A DNA stretch of 64,000 nt from the NCBI RefSeq assembly GCF_001625445.1, contig NZ_LWHG01000034.1:62001-126000 (forward strand), read 5' to 3'. Below are positions 1-19,674 of the stretch, piece by piece. Position numbers and translations under genes: made by a program. Positions within the stretch are counted from its first letter, which is position 1; every line of letters begins with the position of its first letter. The notes under the pieces were generated by a model, which did no database searches, had not been told where the DNA came from, and saw only the letters and a list, made by a program, of their open reading frames with translations. This stretch comes from Haladaptatus sp. R4. GTDB taxonomy: Archaea; Halobacteriota; Halobacteria; Halobacteriales; Haladaptataceae.

Positions 1-853
1 GACGGCCGCGAAGAACGCGCTGATGGCGAACGCGCCGAGTTTGTAGCGGAAGGTGTCGTAGCCCACCGCAATCGCGCGCTCCTCGTTCTCGCGGATGGCG
101 ATCATCACTTTTCCGAACGGCGAGTGGATGATTCGCTGCATGGCGAAGTAGCAGACGAGCACCACCAGACCGACTATGTAGTAGGACACCTCGGTCTGCC
201 CGAGGTGGACGAATCCCAACGTCACCTCGTCGCCGGTCAACGACCCGATGGCGAGGTTCAGCGCATCGACGCCCGGCACGCCGACGTTGAGACCATTCGC
301 GCCGCTCAGGAAGATTCCGTCGTGCGGGTTCGACCCGACGTAGTCCCACCCGCTGATGAAGACGTACAACACCTGCGCGAAGCCAAGGGTGATCATGGCG
401 AAGTAGACGCCCGTCAGTCGGAACGACACCGCCCCGATTGCCAGCGCGAGCGAGACGCCACGAGTCCGCCGACGACCAGCGAATCATGAACGGCGTGTTC
501 GACGGCAGGAACGGGACCTTGTCGTTCGCGGTGAGGACGACGAAGTACGCGCCGGTGCCGTAGAACGCGGCGTGGCCGAACGACAGGTAGCCGGTGTAGC
601 CGCTGATGAAGTCGAACGACATGGCGAACAGGCCGAAGTAGAACACCGGAATCATCGTCTCGACCTGCGGGAGGACCGTCGCCGCCTCCGTCCCGAACGG
701 CGAGTTCACCAACAGCGTGTAGATTCCGGGATAGGCCGCGAGGACGAGGATGACGGCGAAGTGGACGGTGTGGTCGCGGGCATACTCCGCCACCCACGAG
801 GTGTCCGTTTCCCTCGATACCGTTTGTCCGTCGGTCCCGGTTTCGGTGCTAAT
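1..853 (-). CDS. livM: Branched-chain amino-acid/carboxylate ABC transporter permease LivM (3' end beyond window, frameshifted)
   Basis: Second membrane permease of a Liv/HAAT-type ABC importer. The frame reads through several hydrophobic helices and the LivM-typical stretch FISGYTGYLSFGHAAFYGTGA. The frame then breaks at about 481 and again at about 453; joined, it continues into the family pattern VSFRLTGVYFAMITLGFAQ and IIHSPFGKVMIAIRENEERA, and leaves the window at base 1. Both breaks look like one lost base each. No ATG opens the frame: an ATT at 853 overlaps the livH stop, and a GTG at 793 is the first normal start codon, so the start is uncertain. It is the last visible gene of the five-gene transporter operon, after livH. 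Substrate specificity cannot be read from the permease. Confidence 0.85.
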   Translation of the reverse strand, partial: MSTETGTDGQTVSRETDTSWVAEYARDHTVHFAVILVLAAYPGIYTLLVNSPFGTEAATVLPQVETMIPVFYFGLFAMSFDFISGYTGYLSFGHAAFYGTGAYFVVLTANDKVPFLPSNTPFMIRWSSADSWRLARAGNRGGVVPTDGRLLRHDHPWLRAGVVRLHQRVGLRRVEPARRNLPERREWSQRRRAGRRCAEPRHRVVDRRRGDVGIRPPRADRGVLLHSRSGGARLLLRHAANHPLAVRKSDDRHPRERGARDCGGLRHLPLQTRRVRHQRVLRGR

Positions 854-1884
854 GGCCCCCCACCTCCTCGACGCCGAACAGTCCCTGCGGGCGCAGAACC
901 AACACGACCACGAGGATGAGGAAGACAGTCATCTCCGGCAGTCCGGCGAAGTCGATGGCGTTGACGAACCACCACGACATCACCGCATCGACCAACCCGA
1001 CAATCAGTGCGGCGACGACGGTCCCCCGGAACGTTCCGACTCACGACGATGACGACGACGAACGCCGGAAGCAACGCTTGTCGAAGCGACCGAACGCTCG
1101 CACCCCATTTCGGATCCCACATCAGCAGGACGCCCGCGATTCCGGCCAATCCGGTGCCGAGCGCGAAGACGACGGTGAACACCCGGCGAACGTCGATGCC
1201 GAGCGCTTCGGTCATCTCCGCGTCCTCGCTGCCCGCTCGGATGACGAGGCCGTAGCGGGTCCGGGTCAGGAAGGCCCAGATTCCGGCGACCGTGAGGACG
1301 CCGAACGCGATTTCGAAGAGGGCGAGGCCGTTCACCGAAATCCCGGCGAAGCCGACCTGCGTGGTCAGGAATCCGGGTTTCGTTGCGAAGGCGTCCTGCC
1401 ACGCAGTCTGCGGTTGCATGCCGTAGAACTGGACGACGATGCGGGCGAGTTCGTCCAACACCAGCGTCAGCCCGAACGTCAACAGAATCTGGTACACCGG
1501 CGGTCTGTCGTACAGTTTGCGAATGAGGCCGACTTCGACGGTCGTCCCCAACCCGGCCAGCAGACCGAAGGTGACGACGACGGCGACGAAGAAGGCGCCC
1601 ATCTGGGTGAGCGAACTGCTCCCCGCCGAAACGAGCACGACCATTATCACCCCCCCGAGGTACGCGCCGAGCATCGTCAGCGACCCGTGGGCGAAGTTCA
1701 ACACGCCCATCAGGCCGAAGATGAGGGTCAGACCGCTCGCAATCATCACGTACAGCGCGGCCTTGGCGAGACCCTGAACGAACACCGACGCGAGGGTCGA
1801 TGGGTCGAGGAAGTCACCCAGTGCGCTGCCGAAGTTGGCAAGCGGGACGAGCGGAACGAGCGGAGCGACTGTTTGGAAAATCAT
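849..1884 (-). CDS. livH: Branched-chain amino-acid/carboxylate ABC transporter permease LivH (frameshifted)
   Basis: First permease of the Liv-type importer, an integral membrane protein that pairs with LivM. The N-terminal two-thirds are intact: helices with GLTLIFGLMGVLNFAHGSL, the LivH signature region, then PPVYQILLTFGLTLVLDELAR. The frame breaks near 1036 after LLPAFVVVIVV; another frame continues with GTFRGTVVAALIVGLVDAV and ends PQGLFGVEEVGGH at 849, the normal LivH end. The break needs a net +1 or -2 correction. The ATG at 1884 overlaps the livF stop (ATGA), so translation is probably coupled. Length after correction (about 345 residues) is slightly long for LivH because of an N-terminal extension. 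Confidence 0.88.
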
Positions 1885-2579
1885 GCGGAGAGATACCTCC
1901 TGAGTCGCTCGTCGTCCATCGAGACGTCGTTCGAGTCACCCGATTCGACGACGCGTCCGTTGTCCAACACGTAAAATCGGTCCGCGAGGTCGAGCGCCAG
2001 CGGGAGGTTCTGCTCGACCAACAGGATCGTGGTGTCGGTCGCCGCCTCGGCCAGCGCCTCGGCGACGGCCTCCACGATGAGCGGGGCGAGTCCCTCGCTC
2101 GGTTCGTCCACCAGCAGAATCTCGTTGTCGCCGACGAGTCCGCGGGCGAGGGCCAACATCTGCTGTTGGCCCCCGCTGAGATTTCCGGCCTCGCGGTCGC
2201 GGTGCTCTTCGAGGGCGGGGAACGTCTCGAACGCCACGGCGAGCGCGTCGTCCACGTCGTTCCCTTTCGGCACCGCGACGCGGACGTTCTCCTCGACCGT
2301 GAGTTGGGTGAAGATACGTCGTTCCTCGGGAATCCAACCGATTCCCATCTCGGCGACTTCGTGGGTCCCCTTGCCGACGAGTTCGGTCCCGCGGAACCGA
2401 ACGCTGCCCCGTCGCGGGGGATTCAGTTGGAGGATGGTGCGGAGCGTCGTCGTCTTGCCGACGCCGTTTCTGCCGACGAGGGCGACGACTTCGCCTTCCT
2501 CGATGTCCATCGAAACGCCCTCCAGAACGTGGCTTTCGCCGTAGTAGGTGTGGGCGTCTTCGACCGAAAGCAGGCTCAC
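1881..2579 (-). CDS. livF: Liv-type ABC transporter ATP-binding protein LivF
   Basis: Cytoplasmic ATPase of the importer, 232 residues, the usual LivF length. Walker [10 protein letters not shown] lies near residues 37-45, the Q-loop follows in LQLNPPRRG, the signature [10 protein letters not shown] is complete, Walker B is ILLVDEP, and the LivF-type ending [20 protein letters not shown] is present. The frame is open far upstream, but the GTG at 2579 is the best start: it overlaps the livG stop (GTGA) and gives the family N-terminus [18 protein letters not shown]. The gene is intact and sits between livG and livH in the operon. Confidence 0.93.
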
Positions 2580-3342
2580 GCGATACCCTCCTCGGTCTCG
2601 TAGCCGCCGAGATACGCCTTCTGCACCCGTTCGTCGTCGCGCACCGATTCGGGAGGAGCGTCGGCGATGACCGAGCCCTGATTCAACACGACGATGCGGT
2701 CGCTGACTCGCATCACGATGTCCATGTTGTGTTCGACCAGCAGAACGGCGTGGTCTTCCGCCACGTCTCGATGAGGTCGATGATCGTTCCGACGCTCTCC
2801 GAGGAGACGCCCGCGTTCGGTTCGTCAAGCAGGAGGACGTCGGGGTCACCCGCGAGCGCGACGGCGACTTCCAACTGCCGGGTCTGCCCGTGGCTCAGGT
2901 TTTGTGCCGTCGTGTCCGCGAACTCCGAGAGTTCGACGCGTTCCAGAATCCGGTGGGCTTGCTCCGTGTGTTCCGGAAACGCGCGCGTATTCCGCCACGC
3001 GTTGGCCGACCCGTTGCCGTGGGCCTGGACTGCCACGCGAACGTTTTCGAGGACGGAACTCGTCGGGAAGACGTTCGTTATCTGGTAGGATCGGTGCAGT
3101 CCCAACCGCGCCGTCTCGTGCGGCGGCGTATCGGTGATATCTCGCCACGACCCGTTCGTTCGAAACTCGATACTGCCCTCGCTCGGTGTGAGGACGCCCG
3201 TTAACAGGTTGAAAAACGTCGTCTTTCCGGCACCGTTCGGGCCGATGAGCGAACAGAGTTCGTCCTCTTCGAGCGAGAAATCCACGTCATCGACGGCGTC
3301 GAGGCCGCCGAATCGCCGCGTCAGCCCCGTGGTTCGGAGCAT
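2576..3342 (-). CDS. livG: Liv-type ABC transporter ATP-binding protein LivG (frameshifted)
   Basis: The second ATPase of the importer. Walker [10 protein letters not shown] (about residues 35-43), signature [16 protein letters not shown] and Walker [12 protein letters not shown] are in one frame. At about 2760 the frame breaks after DLIET, and the C-terminal part [18 protein letters not shown] (with the H-switch histidine) is in the next frame, ending at 2576. One missing base explains it. The LivG-type insert between Walker A and signature ([20 protein letters not shown]) separates it from LivF. The ATG at 3342 follows the livJ stop by one base. Confidence 0.9.
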
Positions 3343-3343
3343 G

Positions 3344-4765
3344 TTAGAGCGAGCAGGACATGCCGCTCGCGTCCTTCGGGATGGTCGCCTCCTCGCCGTC
3401 GATGGTGGCGAGCGGCTTTCCGGGCATGACGGCGGCGTCCCAGCTATCCGCCCACTCGTCCGTCGTCGGAACCGGGTTGGCGACGGTCATCGAGGAGCGG
3501 GCCTGATTGTTGTACTTCTGGAAGACGTAGCCGTCCTCTCCCTTCGGCGTGTCCTTCACGGTCATGCCGCGCATGGCGTCCGCGATGTCGGTTCCCTTCG
3601 TGGACCCGCTCTCGCGGACGCCCTGCACGATGGCCGACGCCGCGGTGAACGTTCCCGAGGTGAACAGGTCGGGGACGACGCCGTAGGCTTTGGTGTACGA
3701 ATCGACGAACGAGGAGTTGATGTCGTTGTCGTACTGGTTCCAGTGGTAGCGGGTCGTGAACGGTCCGAGCTTCGTTTTTTCGATCTTCTCCTTCGTCAAC
3801 GGTTTGCCGATGACTTTCTGCATCGTCTGGCCGACGACCTGGTTCGTGATCTGGGTCGCAAAGCCACCGAAGACGCGGTAATCGTAGTCGCCGGAGAGGT
3901 ACTCGGTGAACAGGTTCGGCAGCGTGGCGACGGTGAACCCGCCGACGATTCCCTGTGCGCCCGCCTTTTGCGCGTTGTCGAGCAGGCCCTTCCACTCGGA
4001 GTGACCCTGCGGGACGAACTTCTTGCCGACTATTTCCACGCCCTCGTCCTTCAGGACCTGTTCGTAGTTGTTCACGACGGCCTTGCCGAAACTGTAGTCC
4101 GCGCCGAACAGGTACACCTTCTTCACGTCCGTCTGCGTCGCGACGTACTTCCCGCCGCTCCGGGCGTCCATCGCGGTGTTCTCGCTCGCGCGGAAGACGA
4201 GGTTGTTGCACGTTTCGCCGTTCGAGGTGATGTCCGCGGACGCCGCGGGACCGGCGATGTACGGGACGCCAGCCGTTTTCGCCACCGTCTTGATGACCGT
4301 CGTCGCCGAGGACGACGACGCACACCCGAACAGCATGTCCACGTCCTGGTCCTTGACGAGGTTCGTCGCCAACTTCTGTGCCGTCGCCTGTTTGAACTTC
4401 GTGTCACGGACGTACAGTTCGAAATCCACGTCGCCGACCGAGACGGTTGTCTTCCCGGTCTTGACGCCGGTCTTCGGCTTCGCGTCGGCTTTGTACGCCA
4501 GACCGGACAGAAAGCCCCACAGGCTCTGTTGTCCGTAGTACTTCAGGCTCCCTGAAATCGGTTGGAGTACACCGACCTTGACCGTTCCCGATACGTCCTT
4601 CATCGTCGTTTTACCTCCCGTTCCAGCATCGTTACCATCTTTCGAGTCGCTCGTTGTATCGTTGTTGTCATCGTTTCCGTTTCCGGTACACCCTGCCAGT
4701 CCAGCGATGCCGACCGCACCCGCCGCCGTGAGGACGTTGCGCCGTGTCAGTCTCCGGTTCGTCAT
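3344..4765 (-). CDS. livJ: Tat-exported substrate-binding lipoprotein of the Liv-type importer
   Basis: A 473-residue periplasmic-binding-protein-like (type I fold, Peripla_BP_6) receptor. The N-terminus has a twin-arginine motif (NRRLTRRNV) and a lipobox, LAGC, followed by an Asp/Asn/Thr-rich linker, the usual haloarchaeal Tat lipoprotein layout. The domain opens with TVKVGVLQPISGSLKYYG and ends with YNNQARSSMTVANPVPT. The longer open frame upstream lacks a signal, so the ATG at 4765 is chosen. It is the first gene of the operon. The palindrome at 4805-4820 lies 39 bases before this ATG. The related-family ligands are amino acids, amides, urea and aromatic or short-chain acids; the gene neighbourhood favours a carboxylate, by inference only. 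Confidence 0.92.
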   Translation of the reverse strand: MTNRRLTRRNVLTAAGAVGIAGLAGCTGNGNDDNNDTTSDSKDGNDAGTGGKTTMKDVSGTVKVGVLQPISGSLKYYGQQSLWGFLSGLAYKADAKPKTGVKTGKTTVSVGDVDFELYVRDTKFKQATAQKLATNLVKDQDVDMLFGCASSSSATTVIKTVAKTAGVPYIAGPAASADITSNGETCNNLVFRASENTAMDARSGGKYVATQTDVKKVYLFGADYSFGKAVVNNYEQVLKDEGVEIVGKKFVPQGHSEWKGLLDNAQKAGAQGIVGGFTVATLPNLFTEYLSGDYDYRVFGGFATQITNQVVGQTMQKVIGKPLTKEKIEKTKLGPFTTRYHWNQYDNDINSSFVDSYTKAYGVVPDLFTSGTFTAASAIVQGVRESGSTKGTDIADAMRGMTVKDTPKGEDGYVFQKYNNQARSSMTVANPVPTTDEWADSWDAAVMPGKPLATIDGEEATIPKDASGMSCSL

Positions 4766-4804
4766 ACCATCTATACCGGGTGCGAGAAGTGGCAAATACT
4801 GCTG

Positions 4805-4820
4805 GGTTAACATGTGAACT
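4805..4820. promoter_or_regulatory. Operator-like palindrome upstream of livJ (copy 1 of 3)
   Basis: GGTTAACATGTGAACT matches the pattern GGTTnACATGTnAACC at 13 of its 14 fixed positions. It ends 39 bases before the livJ ATG. The same element recurs at 5662-5677 and 12286-12301 at nearly the same distance from start codons. Function as a repressor or activator site is inferred from symmetry, recurrence and spacing. Confidence 0.7.
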
Positions 4821-5104
4821 GACTGGCGCATGGGAGTGGGAAACGGCACTGATCGCCGACTCCCTCGATTACTGGTTTCGAGGAAAACGGTCTCGTAAGC
4901 AACCATCCATCCCGAATAAACAAGCGTGATATATGCAAATAAACTCGAATTTAATTACACAATTAGAAAGCCAAAAAACTGAATGGGGCGGATGGAATAC
5001 AATAATCCGTCGGGGCATCACTCCATGATTGTGGTTGAATCGATTCGCTCTCCCGACAACCGTGAGAAGCGCTCATGTGCACCCAATGGCTCCTCACGGT
5101 CTTT

Positions 5105-5313
5105 CGATACTGACGCTCGTTAGTGGATGACAGACGTACGAACTATCGATTGTAAATGGACATCGTTTCGGCCAAAAGATCAATGCAAGATACGGAGCTA
5201 CCGTAGATTGTCGGGAATTCCATGATTGCATCGTCCACAGCAACTCCCGACGAGACGTGGGGATGACACGTCGTTTGCTGCCCACCCACGTTTTTCGTAC
5301 CGACGCTCGTTAG
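5105..5313. repeat. Two direct repeats in a 840-bp gene-free stretch
   Basis: The stretch 4821-5661 has no convincing gene and is visibly less G+C-rich than its surroundings. It holds two copies of a roughly 19-base element, CGATACTGACGCTCGTTAG at 5105-5123 and TCGTACCGACGCTCGTTAG at 5295-5313, each preceded by a T-rich run. Short open frames over them look non-coding (no start signal, no recognisable protein). They could be remains of a mobile element or regulatory DNA; I cannot tell which. Confidence 0.4.
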
Positions 5314-5661
5314 AAAGATGCAGTCATAGAAGTGGATGGATAAGCAGTTAGCATTTGCAACCAACTCACTCACGGTCCGCTCACCCTACTGAACGTATGT
5401 CGAAGGGAAAGCGCATAGACATCCTCTCCCTTCGACGTTCCCCGCTTTGCAACCGTCGTGTCTGTGAGGGAATTTTCCGCCCTGCATTTTGTTTTGGACG
5501 CGACATCTGTCCACAGTTGTGTTTGTCAATCGATCCGGCAACTACACAGTCGAGGCGGTAGGCACCTAACCAACGGCAAGAGCCTGTTCCATACCAAACG
5601 GACGGATGTGAGAAGTACCAAAGACGTCTGGAGTACCATGTGAACTGACCGGCGATACGGC

Positions 5662-5677
5662 GGTTCACATGTCAACC
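5662..5677. promoter_or_regulatory. Operator-like palindrome upstream of the SDR gene (copy 2 of 3)
   Basis: GGTTCACATGTCAACC is a perfect match to GGTTnACATGTnAACC. It ends 36 bases before the ATG at 5714. A weaker half-like copy (CCATGTGAAC, 5636-5645) lies just upstream; together they form a 9-bp inverted repeat, CATGTGAAC (5638-5646) and GTTCACATG (5663-5671), which may allow two dimers to bind side by side. Confidence 0.72.
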
Positions 5678-5713
5678 CGGTGCTTTTCCTCGTTGCCTCA
5701 CGCGTTCGTAGAT

Positions 5714-6570
5714 ATGGCAGACGACGCGGTAACGCCGCCCGAGTTCGACCCCGACGAAGTACTGTACGTCGAAGACGACCGTTTCAGGCCCGAGAACGTC
5801 GCCATCGTCACGGGCGCGGCCTCCGGCATCGGACGCGCGGCGGCGTCGCGCTGGCGGCGAACGGCCTCACCGTTGTCGGCACCGACGTGGACGAGGACGG
5901 ACTGAGCGAGACGACCGACCGGGCCGAGGAGTACGGCGTCGCGGAAAACGTCGAGACCATCGCCGCCGACCTCAGCAACGAGGACGAGATCGACGGCATC
6001 GTCTCGCACGCGGCGGACGCGGGCGCGGTGAAATATCTCGTCAACGTCGCCGGACTCCAGCTCATCGACCCCATCGACGAGTTCCCGGCCGAGCAGTTCG
6101 ACCTGCTCCACGACGTGATGGTTCGGGCCCCGTTCCTGCTGGCGAAAGCCTGCCTTCCACACATGCGCGACAGCGACGACGGAACCGGCTGTATCGGCAA
6201 CATGGCCTCGGTCCACGGCCACTACGTCACCTCGGACAAGGTCGCGTACAACGTCTCCAAGTTCGGCCTCCGCGGTCTCACCCAGTCCATCGCGGCGGAG
6301 GGTGACGGCGACGTTCGCGCCTTCTCGATCAGTACCGCCTACGTGAAGACGCCGCTCGTGACGGATCAAATCCCGGACACCGCCGAACAACGCGGGATTT
6401 CGGTGGACGAAGTGGTCGAAGACGTGATGCTCGGCCAATCCCGGACGAAAGAGATGATGACGCCACAGGAGGTGGCGAACCTGTTCGTCTTCGGGTTCTC
6501 GAAGCACGCGAGTCATCTGAACGGCGGCGACCTACTGTTCGACGGCGGCATGACGCTGACCTACGACTGA
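5714..6570 (+). CDS. Short-chain dehydrogenase, 3-hydroxybutyrate dehydrogenase-like (frameshifted)
   Basis: NAD(P)-dependent oxidoreductase of the classical SDR family. The Rossmann motif VTGAASGIG is in the first frame; near 5852 one base is missing, after which LAANGLTVVGTDVDEDGL resumes. The active site is SVHGHYVTSDKVAYNVSKFG (Ser, YxxxK). The late region TPLVTDQIPDTAEQRGIS followed by VVEDVMLGQSRTKEMM resembles D-3-hydroxybutyrate dehydrogenases, which interconvert acetoacetate and 3-hydroxybutyrate, but the true substrate is unknown. The first ATG of the frame (5669) falls inside the operator, so 5714 is chosen. Its operator ties it to the liv transporter and the maoC/hydrolase pair. 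Confidence 0.82.
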
Positions 6571-6677
6571 GTCCCGACGCGCGGTTTCGATGGAACGGGA
6601 CGAAAATAACGCCGAAAACGAGGGACCACATCGAACTGCCGACGTGGTCATTTGGCGGGTCCAGAGTTACCCGTCGA

Positions 6678-6896
6678 TCATCCCCACAGCCAATCCGTGA
6701 ACCATACGGCGAGGCCGAGGAGGACTGATGCGATGCCGATCGGTTGGAACGGCGGAATGATCAGCATGACTACTCCGGCGGCGATCAAGAGGATTGCCAA
6801 CTCCTCTTCCGCGTACTCTTCTGTGAACCGGACGAACAACGATCTGTTGTCCTCTTGTTCGGTAGATACGTTCTGTTCGGTTTCTTCGGTTGCCAT
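6678..6896 (-). CDS. Small membrane protein, two transmembrane segments
   Basis: A 72-residue protein starting MATEETEQNV. An acidic, Gln/Glu-rich N-terminus (about 30 residues) is followed by two hydrophobic segments, LAILLIAAGVVMLIIPPF and IGIASVLLGLAVWFTDWLW. No family recognised. The start at 6896 is preferred over 6911, which would only add MRGKD. It stands alone, converging on the SDR gene. Haloarchaeal genomes carry many such small membrane proteins; this one shows normal acidic codon usage, which supports it being real. Confidence 0.6.
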   Translation of the reverse strand: MATEETEQNVSTEQEDNRSLFVRFTEEYAEEELAILLIAAGVVMLIIPPFQPIGIASVLLGLAVWFTDWLWG

Positions 6897-7368
6897 ATCT
6901 TTCCCCCGCATACGCAGAGGGGACGACCCTATTTCCCTCCCCCGTCAGTTCACGAAATCAGATCGTATCTGATGGAGTCATTTCCACGTTATATTCCCAT
7001 GGGAATGTCCGATTTAATACGCGAACATCGTATTTTTCGATTCGAAGGGACCGACCGGGCGATAGAAGCCGTTTCGATGGACCACGTCCCCCGAGCGGCG
7101 GCGACGTATACGACATTTCATCGGTACGTCCCCGTTTGTGTCTGTTTCCCGTCCGAGAGTACGATCTAAGCGATCATTGAACCGACTCCCACGACGACAC
7201 ACACGTTCGAACGATCGTCCGTCGGTCGTTCCGACGCGGTTACCGGGAGTACTCCGGAACACACCAAACCTCCAATAGCTCCCCGTTCAAATAATTACCC
7301 GTGAGGACAGCAATGTACACGAAAATGGAGGACTCACTTATCGATCGTCAAAAGAACGGACGGGTCAC
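6897..7368. other. Gene-free interval
   Basis: About 470 bases without a convincing gene. It contains A+T-rich patches (TTATATTCCC near 6990, AATAATTACCC near 7290) that may be promoters for the flanking divergent genes. No RNA gene, repeat or palindrome stands out. Confidence 0.4.
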
Positions 7369-8318
7369 ATGGTAGACGAGCCGGACCCGCAAGTGCAGGA
7401 CGTCCTGTCGCTGTTGGGTCAATCCACGGTCGCCCGGTTACAGGGTCGCGGCCTCACGGTTTCGGCCGCCCGCTCGATGATGGAGGAGCGGCGACCCTCG
7501 CCCAACCGGAATCGGTCGGGCAAATCGAGGAGTTCGAGATCGAAGGCCCGGACGAACCGATTCCGGTTCGACTGTACCAACCCGACGGTGATGGCGATAC
7601 CCGACCACTGGTGGTGTACTACCACGGCGGCGGGTTCGTGCTGGGCGACTTGGACGGCGTGGACCCCATCTGTCGGCGACTCGTGAACGAAGCCGATTGC
7701 GTCGTCCTGTCGGTCGATTACCGACTCGCGCCGGAACACCCCTTCCCGGCCGGGTTCGAGGATGCCTACGCCGCCGCCGCGTGGGCGAGCGAACAGGCCG
7801 CCGTCCTCGGCGTCGATTCCGACAAAATCGCCGTCGCCGGCGACAGCGCAGGTGGAAACTTCGCGGCCGCCGTCGCGCTGGCCGCTCGGGATCGCGGCGG
7901 CCCCGACCTCGCCCACCAACTGCTCATCTATCCGGTCGTCCGCTCGCCGGTCCAACCGGCACCTGATTCCATCGAGGAGAACGCCACGGGCTACCTCCTC
8001 GAAGCCGACGCGATGGAGTGGTTCGAGGAGCAGTACTTCGCCCGCCCCTCGGACGCGCGAAACGAGTACGCCCATCCACTGCTGGCCCGCGACCTTTCGG
8101 ATCTCGCACCGGCGACCGTCGTGACTGCCGGTTTCGACCCGCTCCGCGACGAGGGAATCTCCTACGCCGACCGACTCGCGGAGGACGGCGTGCCGGTCGA
8201 GCACCGCAACTACGAGGCGATGATCCACGGCTTTGCGAGCATGGTCGGCGCCGTGGACCGGACCGACGATTTTCTGGCTTACGCTGGCGCGCGGTTACGG
8301 GACGCGTTCGAGGAATAA
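7369..8318 (+). CDS. Alpha/beta hydrolase (HSL/esterase-lipase type; frameshifted)
   Basis: Carboxylester hydrolase of the hormone-sensitive-lipase (alpha/beta hydrolase 3) group, about 316 residues after repair. The oxyanion motif YYHGGGFVLGD, nucleophile GDSAGG, acid region PATVVTAGFDPLRDEG and catalytic histidine in NYEAMIHGFASM are all present, so the enzyme should be active. The N-terminal 40 residues are in another frame; one base is missing near 7489 (EE, then ATLAQPESVGQIEEFEIEGP). It probably releases an acid from an ester and would feed the acyl-CoA ligase and MaoC steps nearby. No copy of the operator palindrome lies before it. Confidence 0.85.
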
Positions 8319-8320
8319 AA

Positions 8321-9022
8321 TCAGTCGAGCAGTTCCAGCGCGTCCACGACGCGCTGGATCATCTTTCGCTGGCCGCGTCGCAGGTTCTTCGAGACGGCCG
8401 GTTTCGAGACCCCGAACTCGTCGGCCAGCGTTCCGAGCGTCGCGGAGCGCGGACTCTGGAAGTAGCCGTCCCGAACCGCGTGTTCCAGTTCGTCGCGCTC
8501 GACGTCCGAGAGGTCACGACAGCCGTCGATGAGCGTCATCGCGGCCCCGGCGTTCTGTACGAGGTTCTGGAGGTCGGGCAGGTCGGGCGTCTCGCGTGAC
8601 ACCACGTCGAACTCGTTCTTCCATTCGAGTTCCGAGAGCGCGCCGTTGGCCACGTCCTCGTGGTCGAAGCCGACGTGCCACAGTTCGTGGCCGTCCTCGA
8701 TGTAGAACGGGCCGGTGATGTAGCCGTCGTGGTTTCTGATCGCTTCCATCGCCTCCGTCTGTCCGATGACGGTACGGATGTGCGCGACGTTGTCCCGCTT
8801 CGACAGCAGCGAACAACCGTGCATGTTGTCGTGTTCGCGGAGCGCCTGCAACCCGTGTTCGAGTTCGTTCCTGTCCTCCCCCTCCACGACCAGCCGCGTC
8901 TCCAACTCCTCCGCCGAGCGGTCGAAATCCCAGTGGACGGCGGAGTACGTCACCCCGTAGTCGTCGGAGGTGTCGATGAACGGGCAGTCGTACTGCTCCA
9001 TGTCCATCGTGAGGTCTATCAT
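8321..9022 (-). CDS. Bacterio-opsin activator-like HTH regulator
   Basis: A 233-residue putative DNA-binding regulator of the haloarchaeal Bat/HTH_10 type. The N-terminal 150 residues form the usual sensor-like module (CSLLSKRDNVAHIRTVIG). The C-terminus carries the HTH_10 domain: LSDVERDELEHAVRDGYF, then LGTLADEFGVSKPAVSKNLR. The ATG at 9022 is taken; an in-frame ATG at 9007 is also possible. It converges on the esterase gene with a three-base gap. Being embedded in the catabolic block, it is one candidate for a regulator of that block, but HTH_10 proteins are not known to favour the palindrome described here. Confidence 0.85.
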   Translation of the reverse strand: MIDLTMDMEQYDCPFIDTSDDYGVTYSAVHWDFDRSAEELETRLVVEGEDRNELEHGLQALREHDNMHGCSLLSKRDNVAHIRTVIGQTEAMEAIRNHDGYITGPFYIEDGHELWHVGFDHEDVANGALSELEWKNEFDVVSRETPDLPDLQNLVQNAGAAMTLIDGCRDLSDVERDELEHAVRDGYFQSPRSATLGTLADEFGVSKPAVSKNLRRGQRKMIQRVVDALELLD

Positions 9023-9168
9023 TATCGTTCGCTCTGTTACCGCGAACCATACGTAAGACGAGTTAAAATAGTTTTCTTATCTGTTGGAGGAAGTTGATTA
9101 CTGACGGTCGATTTCCGAGCGAGGTAATCGAGGGCGGTCAGGGAGTCGTACCGAAGTCCAAAACGAAA

Positions 9169-9378
9169 CTAGGAATTATTTTTCGGCGCTTTCCATTCGT
9201 CTCGGCGGAGATAGACGGTCATGAGTCCGAACGCCAGGCCACCCATACCACCAATGAACAACTGGTAAGACCCCTGTTTGTCGAAGACGAGCGTCCCGAT
9301 GGCCGCCCAGATGACAGCCCAAATCACGACCATGACCGGAACGAAAATCCACGGGTTTTGGAGGTTGAATTCCACCAT
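9169..9378 (-). CDS. Small two-helix membrane protein, paralogue A
   Basis: A 69-residue protein, MVEFNLQNPWIFVPVMVVI onward, with two hydrophobic segments and a basic end (LRRDEWKAPKNNS). It resembles the neighbouring gene at 9528-9737: both have NPxIFxPxMVV, a following hydrophobic stretch, a central Gln, Gly-x3-Gly, and an Arg-rich tail. The longer upstream frame lacks features, so the ATG at 9378 is chosen. Function unknown. Confidence 0.6.
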   Translation of the reverse strand: MVEFNLQNPWIFVPVMVVIWAVIWAAIGTLVFDKQGSYQLFIGGMGGLAFGLMTVYLRRDEWKAPKNNS

Positions 9379-9527
9379 ACCCGATATTTGTTTCACACAA
9401 TCAAATAAATGTTGGAAGATGGGGGTGTGCACCGAATCGTTCACCCTTGAAGCCCGTTCCCCACCGAAATTCTGCAGGAACGGAAACTTCGGCGGCGCTC
9501 CAGAAAAGCCGAAAGCTCTCACGCGGA

Positions 9528-9737
9528 TCAACTACGTCGATATCCGTCTCTTATCCATCGTTCGAGGATGAAGACGAGGGAGAGAAGGAACCCCGTCTGG
9601 GCACCCGAAACCACCTGATCGACCGGGTCACCCGAAAATAAGAGACCGACGAGTAGCCACGTCACCATTCCGAAGACTACCATACCGGGTATGAATATCG
9701 ACGGATTTTCCGGGCGCATCGTCTTCATGAACGTCAC
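9528..9737 (-). CDS. Small two-helix membrane protein, paralogue B
   Basis: A 69-residue protein that shares the NPSIFIPGMVVFG start of helix 1, central Gln/Gly pattern and Arg-rich tail with paralogue A immediately downstream, so the pair probably arose by tandem duplication. Several Met codons near the start (MTFMKTM) leave the exact start open by six residues. No family recognised; a membrane location is all that can be inferred. Confidence 0.55.
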   Translation of the reverse strand: MTFMKTMRPENPSIFIPGMVVFGMVTWLLVGLLFSGDPVDQVVSGAQTGFLLSLVFILERWIRDGYRRS

Positions 9738-9816
9738 ATTATTTTCAACTAACTAACCAGTACTGGTAACCTCAGATCCGAACCGTTCGCCACTTCCGTG
9801 AAAACGGAATTCCAGT

Positions 9817-11453
9817 CTATTCCCCGCCGAACTCCGCCGTAACGGTTTCCCGATCGATTTTCGACGGCCCGGACATCGGCATCTCGCCCACGAACGCGAG
9901 GTAGCGCGGACGCTTGAACCGGGCGAGTTTGCCGTCCAGAAATTCCTCCACGTCCGGGAGCGTGAGCGACTCGTCCCCCTGAACGACGGCCTTCCCGACC
10001 TGTCCCCACTTCTCGTCGGGGACACCGATGACGACGACCTCCTCGACCTTCGGATGGTCGGCGATGACGTCCTCGATTTCGGCGGGGTAGACGTTCTCGC
10101 CGCCGCTGACGTACATATTCTTCTTCCGCCCCTCGATGTAGACGTATCCTTCGTCGTCTACGCGCGCGAGGTCCCCCGTCGAAACCCAGTCGCCGGAAGA
10201 CTCGCTCCGCTCGCCTTCAGTGCTCCCGTTCGCTTCGCTCACGGGAATACCGAACGTCTCCACGCTCTCCTCGGGATTCTTCCAGTAACGGTCGGCGGCG
10301 TGGGGCGAGGCGAGTTCGAGTTCGCCGATTTCACCGGTCGAAAGCGGTTCGCCGTCGTCGTCCACGACGCGGGCATCGACGTGCATCGCCGGGACGCCAA
10401 CGCTGTCGGATTTCTCGTGGGGCCACCCGTCGGGCAGGGTGAAGTTGTTCGGCCCGCACTCCGTGAGGCCGTAGCCCTGCGTGAGTTCGACGTCCCGGTC
10501 CCACCACGCTTCCATCACGGAGTGGCGACACGGGCCGCCGCCGCTCTTGGCGAATCGAAGCGTCGAGAGGTCGGTGTCCGCCCACTCGTCGTGGCGGCAC
10601 ATCATCCGCAGGACGGCGGGCACCGCGACGAGAACCGTCGCACCCTCGGATTCCACCATCCGGAGCACGGATTCGGGGTCGAACTCGCGGGCGATGACGA
10701 CCCGCGCGCCGAGGTGGAACAGTGGAACCGTCAGCACGTTCCACCCGCCGGTGTGGAACAGCGGGAACACCATCGGCGTCACGTCCTCGGGGCGAAGCCC
10801 CCACGCCGTAATCGTGTTGAACGAGTTCCAGACGATGGACCCGTGCGTGATAACCGTCTCCTTCGGGACGCCCGTCGAACCGCCCGTGTGCAGGAAGAGA
10901 TGCGGGTCGTCCATCGACAGCGAGGCCGTCTCGACCGGCGAATCGTCCGCCGGAAGCGCCGCATTCCACGATTTGGCCTCCAAAACCTGCGATTCGGACT
11001 CGTTCGGCGAGTCCGAATCGCTCGTCGGTAGACGGAGTACCGAACTCTCGAACTCGCGGGCGTGGTGTGTTGAGCACGTCGTCCGCGAGTTCCGAGAACG
11101 GTTCCTCCACGACGAGCAGTTCCGGATCCACGTCGTTCAGCATCTGGACGAGTTCGCCCGCCGCGAGGCGGTGTGAGAGCGGTGCGAGCACGCCGCCGGT
11201 CTTTCCCGTGCCGAAGAAACAGTCGATGAGTTCCGGCCGGTTTCGGGAGATAGCGGCGACGCGTTCCCCGTCTTCGACCCCGTGCTCGCGGAGCAGACGG
11301 GCGGTTCGGTTCGCCCGCCGGTCGAGTTCCCGATAGGTGTAGCGCTCGCCCGTCGTGGCGCTCCACGACTCCCACCCGTTCGGGTGAGAGTTGCGCCCGT
11401 TTTTCGCTCCACGCGCCGACCCAGTCGTACGGTCGTGTGGAGTGATCAGGCAT
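9817..11453 (-). CDS. Acyl-CoA synthetase (AMP-forming; two frameshifts)
   Basis: Activates a carboxylic acid to its CoA thioester through an acyl-AMP. The P-loop is LHTGGSTGVPKET, followed by YGLTECGPNNF, the STGDLARVDDEGYVYIEGRK hinge region, SGGENVYPAEIEDV, and the C-terminal catalytic lysine in GPSKIDRE; these make an active ANL-family enzyme. The N-terminal third is split by indels near 11375 (+1 or -2) and near 11040 (-1); joined pieces read SPERVGVVE, ATTGERYTYRELDRRANRTA and GGVLAPLSHRLA. The ATG at 11453 overlaps the hydrolase stop by eight bases, so it is the second gene of an operon read from the palindrome at 12286. Substrate class is not certain. Confidence 0.88.
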
Positions 11454-12249
11454 CGTCGATGAAAGTGCGGAGTCGTTCGTTTACCGCGTCGGCCTGCTCG
11501 ATGAAGAAGAGGTGTGGGCCGCCGTCGAACAGTTCGAGTTCGGCGTGCGGAAGCAGTTCCGCGAGCAGTTCCCCGTTTTCGACCGGAAGCACGCGGTCAG
11601 CGGTTCCGTGCGCGATGAGGGTCGGAATCGAGATTTCACCGAGTCGGTCGCTGGCGTCGAAGTTCATCACACCCATGGCCTGCGCCTCCCTCCCCGCGTC
11701 GGAGGCATCGCCCTCCAGTCGCCAGTCCACGATGTCGGAGACGACGTCGTCGTGTTCCGCGGCGAACTCGTCGGTCATCGCGGGATCCATCTTGTAGCGA
11801 ATCTCCTCGCGTTCGTCGTACCCCTCGGGCACGTCGAACATCTTCTCCTGCGTCTCGGGCGGCGTCGGCACCGCGTTCTCGCCGCCAGGCGTAGTGCAGA
11901 GCAGAGACAGCGTCTCCGCGCGGTCGTAATCGAGGACGTATTCCTGGGCGATCATCCCGCCCATGCTCGCCCCGACGATGTGGGCGGATTCGACGCCGAC
12001 CGCGTCGATGACGGCGTCGAGGTCGCTCGCCATCTCCTCGATGCTGTACGGGCCGTCCGGCGCGTCGGATTTACCGGTTCCGCGGTTGTCCCACACGACG
12101 ACGTGGTAGTCGTCCTCGAACGCTTCGCGTTGCCAACGCCACATCCATCGTCCGTAGCCGAGTCCCTCCACGAAAACGATGGTTTCGGCGTCCGTCGGAC
12201 CGCCCTCCTCGTAGAAGAGCGAGACGCCGTCGTTGTCGGTAAATGGCAT
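11446..12249 (-). CDS. Alpha/beta hydrolase (enol-lactonase/ester hydrolase-like)
   Basis: A 267-residue alpha/beta hydrolase fold 1 protein. The core motifs are VVVWDNRGTGKSDAP, nucleophile elbow GASMGG, the acid region LIAHGTADRVLPVEN and histidine GGPHLFF. This pattern is shared by 3-oxoadipate enol-lactonases and other C-C or ester hydrolases, so the substrate is open. The start at 12249 (MPFTDNDGVSLFYEEGG) fits the family better than the upstream 12279 and lies 36 bases from the palindrome at 12286-12301. The stop overlaps the acyl-CoA ligase start, so the two are co-translated, consistent with hydrolysis followed by CoA activation of the released acid. Confidence 0.87.
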   Translation of the reverse strand: MPFTDNDGVSLFYEEGGPTDAETIVFVEGLGYGRWMWRWQREAFEDDYHVVVWDNRGTGKSDAPDGPYSIEEMASDLDAVIDAVGVESAHIVGASMGGMIAQEYVLDYDRAETLSLLCTTPGGENAVPTPPETQEKMFDVPEGYDEREEIRYKMDPAMTDEFAAEHDDVVSDIVDWRLEGDASDAGREAQAMGVMNFDASDRLGEISIPTLIAHGTADRVLPVENGELLAELLPHAELELFDGGPHLFFIEQADAVNERLRTFIDDA

Positions 12250-12285
12250 ACGAAGGGCGACGCGTGTTCGCGTAATCAACCCCCT

Positions 12286-12301
12286 GTTTTACATGTTAAC
12301 C
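12286..12301. promoter_or_regulatory. Operator-like palindrome between the hydrolase and maoC genes (copy 3 of 3)
   Basis: GTTTTACATGTTAACC matches GGTTnACATGTnAACC at 13 of 14 fixed positions. It is centred between divergent genes: 36 bases to the hydrolase start (12249) and 35 bases to the maoC start (12337). The symmetry of spacing suggests one site governs both directions. Confidence 0.7.
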
Positions 12302-12336: not shown

Positions 12337-12878
12337 ATGCCAGTCGCATCCGTCGGGGACGCCGAAACGGCGACGTTGGAACTGACTCAGGAACGCATCG
12401 ACCAGTTCGCCGCACTCACCGGCGACGAAAACCCGCTCCACGTGGACGAGGAGTACGCCGAAGAGGGCCTCTTCGGCGGCCGCGTCGCCCACGGCGCGCT
12501 CACGGCCAGCGTCGTCAGCGCCGCGCTCGCGGCGCTTCCCGGCGACATCGTCTATCTCTCGCAAAATTTGGAGTTCGAAAACCCGTCCGGCCGGGCGAAA
12601 CCGTCAGCGCAACCGCGACCGTAACCGAGGATTTGGGAACGGACCGACTCGCGGTGGAAATCGACGCTGAAACCGACAGACAGGTGCTCTCAGGTGAGAC
12701 GACGATCATGTCGCCGGCACGAATAGCGCCGAGTAGTTCGATCGGTCCCGATATTCTACTGGCGGCGGTTTTCTCACCTTACGCGAAGTTCGACACGATA
12801 CCGCCTCGAATCCGCCGATTTCCGTTTTCGGGGTCGATAGCATCGGCTGGAGCAGTGTTGGTACAAGATGGAGAATGA
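12337..12878 (+). CDS. MaoC-family enoyl-CoA hydratase/dehydratase (frameshifted)
   Basis: Hot-dog-fold hydratase acting on enoyl-CoA or hydroxyacyl-CoA esters. The hydratase-2 motif is recognisable: QFAALTGDENPLHVDEEYA, then FGGRVAHGALTASVVSA, with the catalytic Asp and His. A base is missing near 12585, within ENPVRPGETVSATATV, after which the chain continues VTEDLGTDRLAVEIDAE. The tail beyond about residue 125 does not look like MaoC and makes the protein longer than the usual 130-160 residues, so another undetected indel near the 3' end is possible. It is divergent from the hydrolase/ligase operon and shares its operator. Confidence 0.82.
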
Positions 12879-12888
12879 TCGGGGGTGA

Positions 12889-14090
12889 TTAGTCAGCCGA
12901 AACGTGCTCCGCCGCGTTTCGGTTGATGGCGTTGAGCAGGAACGATCCACCGCCGAAGAGACCGACCGCGCCGACGAAGACGACGACTGCGCCGACGAAG
13001 AACGGGACGCCCGGCGAATAGGCGTCCTTCAAGTATCCGGCGAGGACCGGCGCGATGGCCGCACCCGACCACCGCAGGAAGTTGTACGCGCCGCTGCTGA
13101 CCGAGCGCGTGAACGGCGACACCTGAATGGCGAACGTCGTGAACATCGCGTTGGCGATACCGCAGAAGATACCCGAAATCACGATGACTGGGAGCAGTAG
13201 TTCCGCCTGTCCTTCCGCGAATCCGGCCGCGGCGAGGACGAGGGCCATTCCAAGCACGTCAGCGAACAACACTTTCGATGCGTCGAACCTGCTCGTCAAC
13301 CAGTTCACGACGAACACCGAGGAAATCGCCACGAGCGCACCCCACGCGAAGAACGTCACGCCGAGCGCCGTGGCCGAGAGGTCCGGAAGCGTAAGCGGCG
13401 AGTACGCGAGGATGGTGAAGAACCCGAAGCTGTAACAGAGACCGATGAGGGCGTTGACCAGCACGGGCGGATTTTTCAGCGCCATGATCATGTCCGCGGG
13501 CGTCGCTTGCTCCTTTCCTTCCGGTTCACGGAGGAAGGCGAGCGAGACGATGAGGGCGAGCGCCATCAGCGTCGCCGTACCGAAGAAGGGGTAGCGCCAC
13601 GAGAACGAACCGAGATAGCCGCCGAGAAGCGGGCCGCCCGCGATGCCGAGGCGAGCGCCGCCTCGTACAGCATGATGGCTTCTTCAGTCCCGCCTTCCGC
13701 GAGGCCGACGATGACGGCGAGTGCCGTCGAGGTGAACAACGCGTTACCGAAACCCCACCCCCCGCGCACGATGGCGAGTTCGGTGATGGAGTTCGACAGT
13801 CCCGCGAGTGTCGCCATCACGACGACGATGGCGAGACCGACGATGATGACTCGTTTGTTGCCGAATCTGGCACTCAAAACGCCCGATACGAGCATGGCGA
13901 CCGCCATCACGATCAGGTAGGTGGTGAACAACAGTTCGACTTCCGCCCCCGACGCGCCCATCTTGTCGCCGATGATGGGGAGCACCGGGTCGACGACGCC
14001 GATTCCGAGAAACGCGACGAACGTTGCGAACGCCGTCGCCAGAACGGCAGGGGAAAAACGATCCGTAACTGTTCGTGTAGATGTACTCAT
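12889..14090 (-). CDS. MFS transporter (drug/solute carrier; frameshifted)
   Basis: Polytopic carrier of about 400 residues with roughly 12 hydrophobic segments. The N-terminal half starts STSTRTVTDRFSPAVLATA and carries the MFS loop motif SARFGNKRVIIVG. The frame breaks near 13653 (missing one base in ALGLGIAGGPLLGGYLG) and continues through MALALIVSLAFLREPEG to the end. It lies between maoC and the cupin gene in the catabolic block, so it may carry a related acid or an inhibitor, but its operator-like site (14223-14240) is of the type used by TetR repressors of exporters. Substrate unknown. Confidence 0.83.
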
Positions 14091-18855: not shown

Positions 18856-19674
18856 ATGGAGTACGAGACGATGGGCGGCGAGGAGATTCCGAAGATAGGC
18901 CTCGGAACGTGGCGGATGGAAGGTGGGACGTGCCGCGATGCGGTCTCGACGGCGCTCGACCTCGGCTACCGACACATCGACACCGCACAGGCCTACGGCA
19001 ACGAGCGGGAGGTCGGGCAGGCCATCGAACACTCGGACGTCGACCGCGATGACGTGTTTCTGACGACGAAGGTGTGGCCGATGCACCGCAAACGGACCGA
19101 CATCGTGAACTCCGTCAACGAGAGTCTCACGAAGCTCGGTACCGAATACGTCGATCTGTTGCTCATCCACTGGCCGAACCCGCTCGCCTCGACGGGAGAG
19201 GTGATGCGGACGCTGTCCGACCTCCAGAACGACGGGTTGACGCGACACATCGGCGTGAGCAACTTCGGCGTCGAGCAGTTGGAGGAGGCTCGGAACGAGG
19301 CCACGGTGGACGTGTTCACCGACCAACTCCAGTTTCACCCGTTCAACCCGCAGGAAGAGCTACTGGAATACTGCCAAGAGAACGACGTGCTGTTGACGGC
19401 CTACAGTCCGCTCGCACACGGCGGAGCCATGCACGACCACGTGCTCACTGAACTCGGCAAGAAGTACGACAAAACGCCCGCACAGGTCGCGCTTCGATGG
19501 GTGACACAACAGGAGAAGGTGGTCACGATTCCGAAGTCCACGAGCGAGGAGCACCTGAAACAGAACCTCGACGTGTTCGACTTCGAATTGACCGAAACGG
19601 AGATGGCGCTGATCGCCCGCCCGTCCCGCCTCCGAACCGGACTCTCGATGGTTCGCGGTCGATTGGGGCGGTAA
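18856..19674 (+). CDS. Aldo/keto reductase
   Basis: A 272-residue NADPH-dependent aldehyde/ketone reductase of the 2,5-diketo-gluconate reductase type. The catalytic tetrad is visible: Asp42 and Tyr47 in HIDTAQAYGNE, Lys72 in TTKVWP, His105 in LLIHWP. The strand motif IGVSNFGVEQLEE and the late PKSTSEEHLKQN cofactor loop are also present. The in-frame ATG at 18856 gives the family start YETMGGEEIPKIGLGTWR; the earlier one at 18835 adds seven atypical residues. Physiological substrate unknown. Confidence 0.88.
   Translation: MEYETMGGEEIPKIGLGTWRMEGGTCRDAVSTALDLGYRHIDTAQAYGNEREVGQAIEHSDVDRDDVFLTTKVWPMHRKRTDIVNSVNESLTKLGTEYVDLLLIHWPNPLASTGEVMRTLSDLQNDGLTRHIGVSNFGVEQLEEARNEATVDVFTDQLQFHPFNPQEELLEYCQENDVLLTAYSPLAHGGAMHDHVLTELGKKYDKTPAQVALRWVTQQEKVVTIPKSTSEEHLKQNLDVFDFELTETEMALIARPSRLRTGLSMVRGRLGR

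Follow-up and report, generated by a model that had tools for sequence, protein, structure and literature searches.

A conserved palindrome as the putative operator of a small catabolic regulon in haloarchaea, with an HTH_10 protein as its candidate activator

Comparative sequence analysis identifies the palindrome GGTTnACATGTnAACC, which precedes four uptake and breakdown genes of fatty-acid type, as a real switch site that is conserved across many haloarchaea. Most probably it serves as the operator for a small regulon dedicated to catabolism, and the HTH_10 protein of a neighboring gene, hitherto without an assigned role, is its candidate activating reader. We put the probability of this reading at about three in four. 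The regulon is considered real because the sites are conserved at four target genes, they lie at a near-fixed distance from the start codons, and an unlinked block in Halorussus keeps its site. The site, its spacing, its conservation, the target set, the synteny, and the co-occurrence with the regulator gene are all observed in the sequences. The first-pass annotation had proposed one regulon because the transporter, SDR, and maoC/hydrolase promoters share the palindrome, and phylogenetic footprinting, the fixed spacing, and the persistence of the site where a target is unlinked strongly support that claim. The annotation named no regulator; the HTH_10 gene is proposed in the present analysis.

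A palindrome at the promoters of a transport and catabolic cluster

The window is the 64,000-nucleotide stretch of Haladaptatus sp. R4 DNA that was analyzed. The three palindromes and the genes around them are as follows.

706–3342, minus strand, remaining LIV-type ABC transporter (two ATPases, permease); NCBIfam UrtD/UrtE/UrtB/Liv-type matches
3344–4765, minus strand, livJ-type ABC-transporter substrate-binding protein; PF13458, E = 1.6e-56; in frame from ATG 4765
4777–4828, livJ promoter segment that contains operator 1; one copy of a 52-nt direct repeat (spacing 826)
4805–4820, operator 1, GGTTAACATGTGAACT, upstream of livJ; 1 mismatch; gap of 39 bases to ATG 4765 (minus strand)
5662–5677, operator 2, GGTTCACATGTCAACC, upstream of the SDR gene; 0 mismatches; gap of 36 bases to ATG 5714 (plus strand)
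5714–6570, plus strand, short-chain dehydrogenase (SDR), 3-hydroxybutyrate dehydrogenase-like; best NCBIfam match TIGR01963
8321–9022, minus strand, proposed regulator, 233 aa; HVO_2525_N (PF24279, E = 2.9e-13) and HTH_10 (PF04967, E = 1.8e-13)
9817–11453, minus strand, AMP-forming acyl-CoA ligase, frame-disrupted; PF00501, E = 7.9e-50
11446–12249, minus strand, alpha/beta hydrolase; PF00561
12286–12301, operator 3, GTTTTACATGTTAACC, between the divergent hydrolase and maoC genes and common to both promoters; 1 mismatch; 36 bases from hydrolase ATG 12249 (minus strand) and 35 bases from maoC ATG 12337 (plus strand)
12337–12730, plus strand, MaoC-like hydratase whose frame is disrupted from about codon 83 on; PF01575, E = 3e-18

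The positions, mismatch numbers, and start-codon distances of the three operators reproduce those first described, and even with 3 mismatches allowed no copy was found upstream of the esterase and cupin genes, again in agreement with the earlier description. The only further match in the window at this threshold is at 19305 (3 mismatches), which is chance-level. The window count of 4 compares with 1.28 expected and was reached by 5 of 100 shuffles; by itself it is not significant. When 1 mismatch is allowed, the whole genome (4.9 Mb) contains just three sites, all of them in this cluster, and the reversed control gave 0. At 2 mismatches there are 5 sites versus 6 for the reversed control, which is the chance level, and one such 2-mismatch site is at C29:409817 (L005). 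The genome-wide search revealed no scattering of the motif through coding DNA.

The transporter segment 706–3342 is partly frame-disrupted in the present assembly. Disrupted frames were also found in the SDR (5714–5850; a frameshift puts ATG 5714 out of register with the long frame 5680–6570), the acyl-CoA ligase (9817–11453), maoC (12337–12730), and an MFS transporter (12889–14090). The SDR, acyl-CoA ligase, and maoC orthologues are intact in relatives, and the maoC orthologue in L065 has 130 aa. The disruptions are likely to be assembly indel errors; gene decay is possible.

The same neighbors recur over 25 loci: the LIV transporter, the acyl-CoA ligase, a KAS III-like protein (PRK06840), the hydrolase, the SDR, maoC, and the HTH_10 protein. 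The acyl-CoA ligase gene carries no palindrome of its own. It lies downstream of the hydrolase, between the hydrolase and the regulator, its adjacency to both is conserved, and it probably shares the hydrolase promoter, behind which it runs in the same direction. The SDR scored 201.8 bits and its intact orthologue 226.4 bits against TIGR01963, below the curated cut-off of 307 bits. The hydrolase scored 143.5 bits against its nearest curated model, 3-oxoadipate enol-lactonase PcaD, below the cut-off of 255.85. A plausible, putative pathway of the controlled genes is import, hydrolysis, activation, and hydration, and, judging by the types of enzyme, the cluster may serve to take up and oxidize 3-hydroxyacids or different short-chain acids. 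The KAS III-like protein that accompanies the cluster is above the PRK06840 cut-off at L099 15906–16919 and at 15 other loci. Adjacent PRK numbers also score (06839, ligase; 06841, SDR), hinting at a related bacterial operon.

A copy of the livJ promoter segment is present at 5603–5654; it is 79% identical and its operator is destroyed. Parts of the sequence between the repeats (4829–5602) match C30 (78%) and C21 (70%). The SDR sites of G006, G007, and G008 read GGTTCACATATCAACC and lie 31–32 bp from the livJ site; in the window, the livJ promoter segment and its decayed copy are spaced 826 bp.

Distribution of the sites in haloarchaea

Family genomes were searched (n = 28; the genera among the named relatives are Haladaptatus, Halomicrococcus, and Halorussus), and 24 of the 28 (Haladaptatus, Halorussus) have 1–3 sites, compared to 0–1 per genome for the reversed control. 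Most Halorussus genomes have exactly two. Across the order, at least one site is present in 110/392 genomes and the reversed pattern in 17/392; most of the order-wide sites that were examined precede orthologues of livJ, SDR, hydrolase, and maoC. The livJ orthologues of Haladaptatus, Halorussus, Halosimplex, Halomicrobium, Halobacterium, and others are preceded by the same site. Orthologues in related genomes do carry the site, whereas its absence there would have spoken against the regulon. In 41 named haloarchaeal loci (813 kb, up to 2 mismatches), 49 of 52 sites precede hydrolase, maoC, livJ, or SDR. Under a first-order Markov model, only about 1 site in total would be expected in the 813 kb.

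Constant spacing had been put forward as an argument against chance, and near-fixed distances do recur in the haloarchaeal loci. The gap to the hydrolase is 34–36 bp in 15/15 loci with a site and the gap to maoC is 35–36 in 8/8. The livJ and SDR gaps are more scattered, in part because the N-termini align poorly. The idea that three promoter-proximal palindromes are alike by chance draws on the unexceptional 3-mismatch count in the window. It has a negligible probability against fixed-position conservation in dozens of genomes and the placement of 49/52 sites at the same targets. The comparative data, together with the genome-wide specificity, rule out a chance origin.

The hydrolase/maoC site and the livJ site are 95–321 kb apart in Halorussus G011, G012, and G013 and are on different contigs in G010, G014, and G017; both sites are kept in all six genomes. 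Retention of the site by this unlinked hydrolase/maoC block rules out conservation through cluster inertia alone. Haloarcula retains the regulator and the livJ site, and several of its genomes have no palindrome before the hydrolase.

Candidate regulator, its paralogue, and operator variants

Haloarchaea encode many HTH_10 proteins, a group whose namesake is Bat, and to our knowledge few of them have a known operator or known targets. The regulator belongs to this Bat-type group (PF04967, 50.5 bits versus a gathering score of 23.1). It is not Bat proper: GAF and PAS domains were not found, and Pfam gives HVO_2525_N, HTH_10, and a sub-threshold HTH_20. A search of solved structures by sequence gave nothing useful. 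The AlphaFold model has a pLDDT of 82 and a pTM of 0.59. The best fold match to its N terminus is Thermoplasma Ta1207 (Z 11.1, 139 residues, rmsd 3.3), and the C terminus matches sigma-region-4-like domains at Z 8–10, close to background. These matches to a predicted structure serve as no more than a hint. A literature search, with most subscription journals outside its reach, returned no paper on HVO_2525 or with the operator sequence.

The HTH_10 gene is present in 22 of the 25 loci and is the sole transcription factor among the conserved neighbor families. Without correction for phylogeny, 59 of 60 genomes with at least two sites encode an HTH_10 relative, the motif is present in 61 of 67 genomes with a close regulator orthologue (the other 6 lack any site at the 1-mismatch limit), and it is present in 13 of 191 genomes without a relative, near the reversed control of 17/392. 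Four Haladaptatus species with an intact regulator gene have 3 sites each. Another four species encode the paralogue but not the regulator: 0 sites were found in three of them, and in the fourth, G001, the motif occurs once, as GGTTGACATGGCAACC with 1 mismatch, and no target gene is close to it. In H. halobius, the regulator copy is broken and the sites are decayed. The whole cluster is decaying in this genome (L103, 8992–11880), with the broken regulator, a truncated livJ, degraded operators, and an internal stop in the hydrolase; the SDR is still 81% identical. The palindrome is missing at the hydrolase in 10 of 12 genomes picked for having a hydrolase without a detected regulator. Six of those 10 are Haloarcula and carry little weight because the hydrolase site is often absent there despite the presence of the regulator.

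The genome's only other close relative of the regulator is a paralogue at C11:801611–802300 with 54% identity. A fourth site, TGTTTACATATCAACC, is at C11:798858, 2.7 kb from the paralogue, with a gap of 38 bp to an operon of a small membrane protein followed by a sodium:solute symporter (SSS). This arrangement is also kept in Haladaptatus G002 and G004. The count alone is chance-level for this site; its position and conservation are what matter. Haloarcula and relatives have variant sites near the paralogue, before an SDR (gap 36–38) and before another LIV-type binding protein. Near the paralogous regulator, variant palindromes at L110 3039 and L122 13031 are located roughly 100 bp ahead of a further LIV-type substrate-binding protein, suggesting a second, paralogue-specific regulon. 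Recognition helices that start with SKPA pair with hydrolase operators of the form ..ACATGT.., and those that start with SDTA pair with GGTTGATA.. at the same position and the center ..GATA..; this co-variation is one switch on the tree.

A genuine operator might instead be read by a regulator encoded elsewhere, with the HTH_10 gene a mere neighbor. Regulators are numerous in haloarchaea, and the hydrolase site persists in G208 and in the 81%-complete genome G374, in neither of which an HTH_10 relative was detected. We consider this idea unlikely in view of the synteny in 22/25 loci, the genome-wide co-occurrence, the fourth site next to the second paralogue, and the co-variation of helix and operator. 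These data point to the HTH_10 protein as the reader of the palindrome.

Promoter layout and comparison with known systems

Alignment of the hydrolase promoters places the palindrome at −52 to −37, followed by a conserved TT at −30/−29 with no CGAAA element between them. A consensus BRE and TATA (CGAAA/TTWT) scoring at least 8 of 9 was found in 4/70 target promoters versus 28/64 regulator-gene promoters. For comparison, 72% of the protein-coding transcripts of Haloferax volcanii are leaderless, and the promoter consensus is TTWT plus CGAAA (PMC4983044). An RNA hairpin or terminator is an unlikely role for the palindrome, which at −52 to −37 from the start codon is outside any leaderless transcript.

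The typical binding position of archaeal activators is upstream of the BRE, at promoters whose BRE or TATA is weak (PMC5512572). The target promoters have this layout at the sequence level: an operator upstream of the BRE, a constant distance, and a weak BRE/TATA. Activation by the HTH_10 protein is favored because the palindrome sits upstream of promoters without a consensus BRE, as the binding sites of described archaeal activators do. The same operator and reader could also work in repression, with release by the pathway substrate. Repression is frequent among catabolic operons, and the site ends at −37, where it touches the edge of the BRE region. However, the site is upstream of the expected BRE/TATA and does not cover them, the consensus elements that many regulator promoters have are missing in the target promoters, and the described pattern at weak BREs is that of activators (PMC5512572). 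Repression is thus improbable, though less so than a regulator encoded elsewhere.

From these observations we infer binding, dimerization, activation, and a ligand. A dimer of the HTH_10 protein (8321–9022) would bind the palindrome and most likely recruit TFB/TBP, a step suggested because the target promoters lack a consensus BRE. Between the hydrolase and maoC, one dimer placed halfway from either start would act on both promoters. A pathway intermediate or substrate, such as a 3-hydroxyacid or another short-chain acid, is the probable inducer and may be sensed by the N-terminal domain with its predicted ferredoxin-like/ACT-like repeats.

A broader model, tentative and slightly less probable than not, treats the HVO_2525_N/HTH_10 proteins as one haloarchaeal family of activators that sense metabolites and whose operators differ between paralogues. 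Clade A would use GGTTnACATGTnAACC at the LIV-transporter/hydrolase/hydratase promoters, clade B a variant site at the SSS-symporter and 3-hydroxybutyrate dehydrogenase-like promoters, and clade C GGTTGATA..TCGAAC. One dimer at the mid-point of an 87–89-bp intergenic region could activate two divergent leaderless promoters symmetrically.

The candidate regulator resembles Bat, the bacterioopsin activator of Halobacterium salinarum, in its C-terminal HTH-type DNA-binding domain, but it has an HVO_2525_N domain in place of the GAF and PAS/PAC domains of Bat (PMC3184054). The bop regulon is likewise a small haloarchaeal regulon with an upstream activator sequence common to several promoters (PMC3184054); it comprises opsin and carotenoid genes, whereas the present targets are catabolic and transport genes. 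EarA, TFB-RF1, and Ptr2 share with the present system an operator directly upstream of the BRE position and no consensus BRE (PMC5512572), a likeness drawn here from sequence; unlike those proteins, the present regulator is assigned to the HTH_10 family. The MaoC-like hydratase and the 3-hydroxybutyrate dehydrogenase-like SDR are reminiscent of polyhydroxyalkanoate (PHA) mobilization in Haloferax mediterranei with its PhaJ hydratases (PMC4823750). That link is by enzyme type only, and none of the families identified in the conserved cluster is a PHA synthase or depolymerase.

Through this reading one HTH_10 family would gain an exactly specified operator and a delimited set of targets, along with a mode of action that can be tested. 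It also provides a functional lead for a LIV-type transporter cluster that is present in many haloarchaeal genera. The symmetric operator between divergent, probably leaderless promoters would make a compact test case for archaeal activators.
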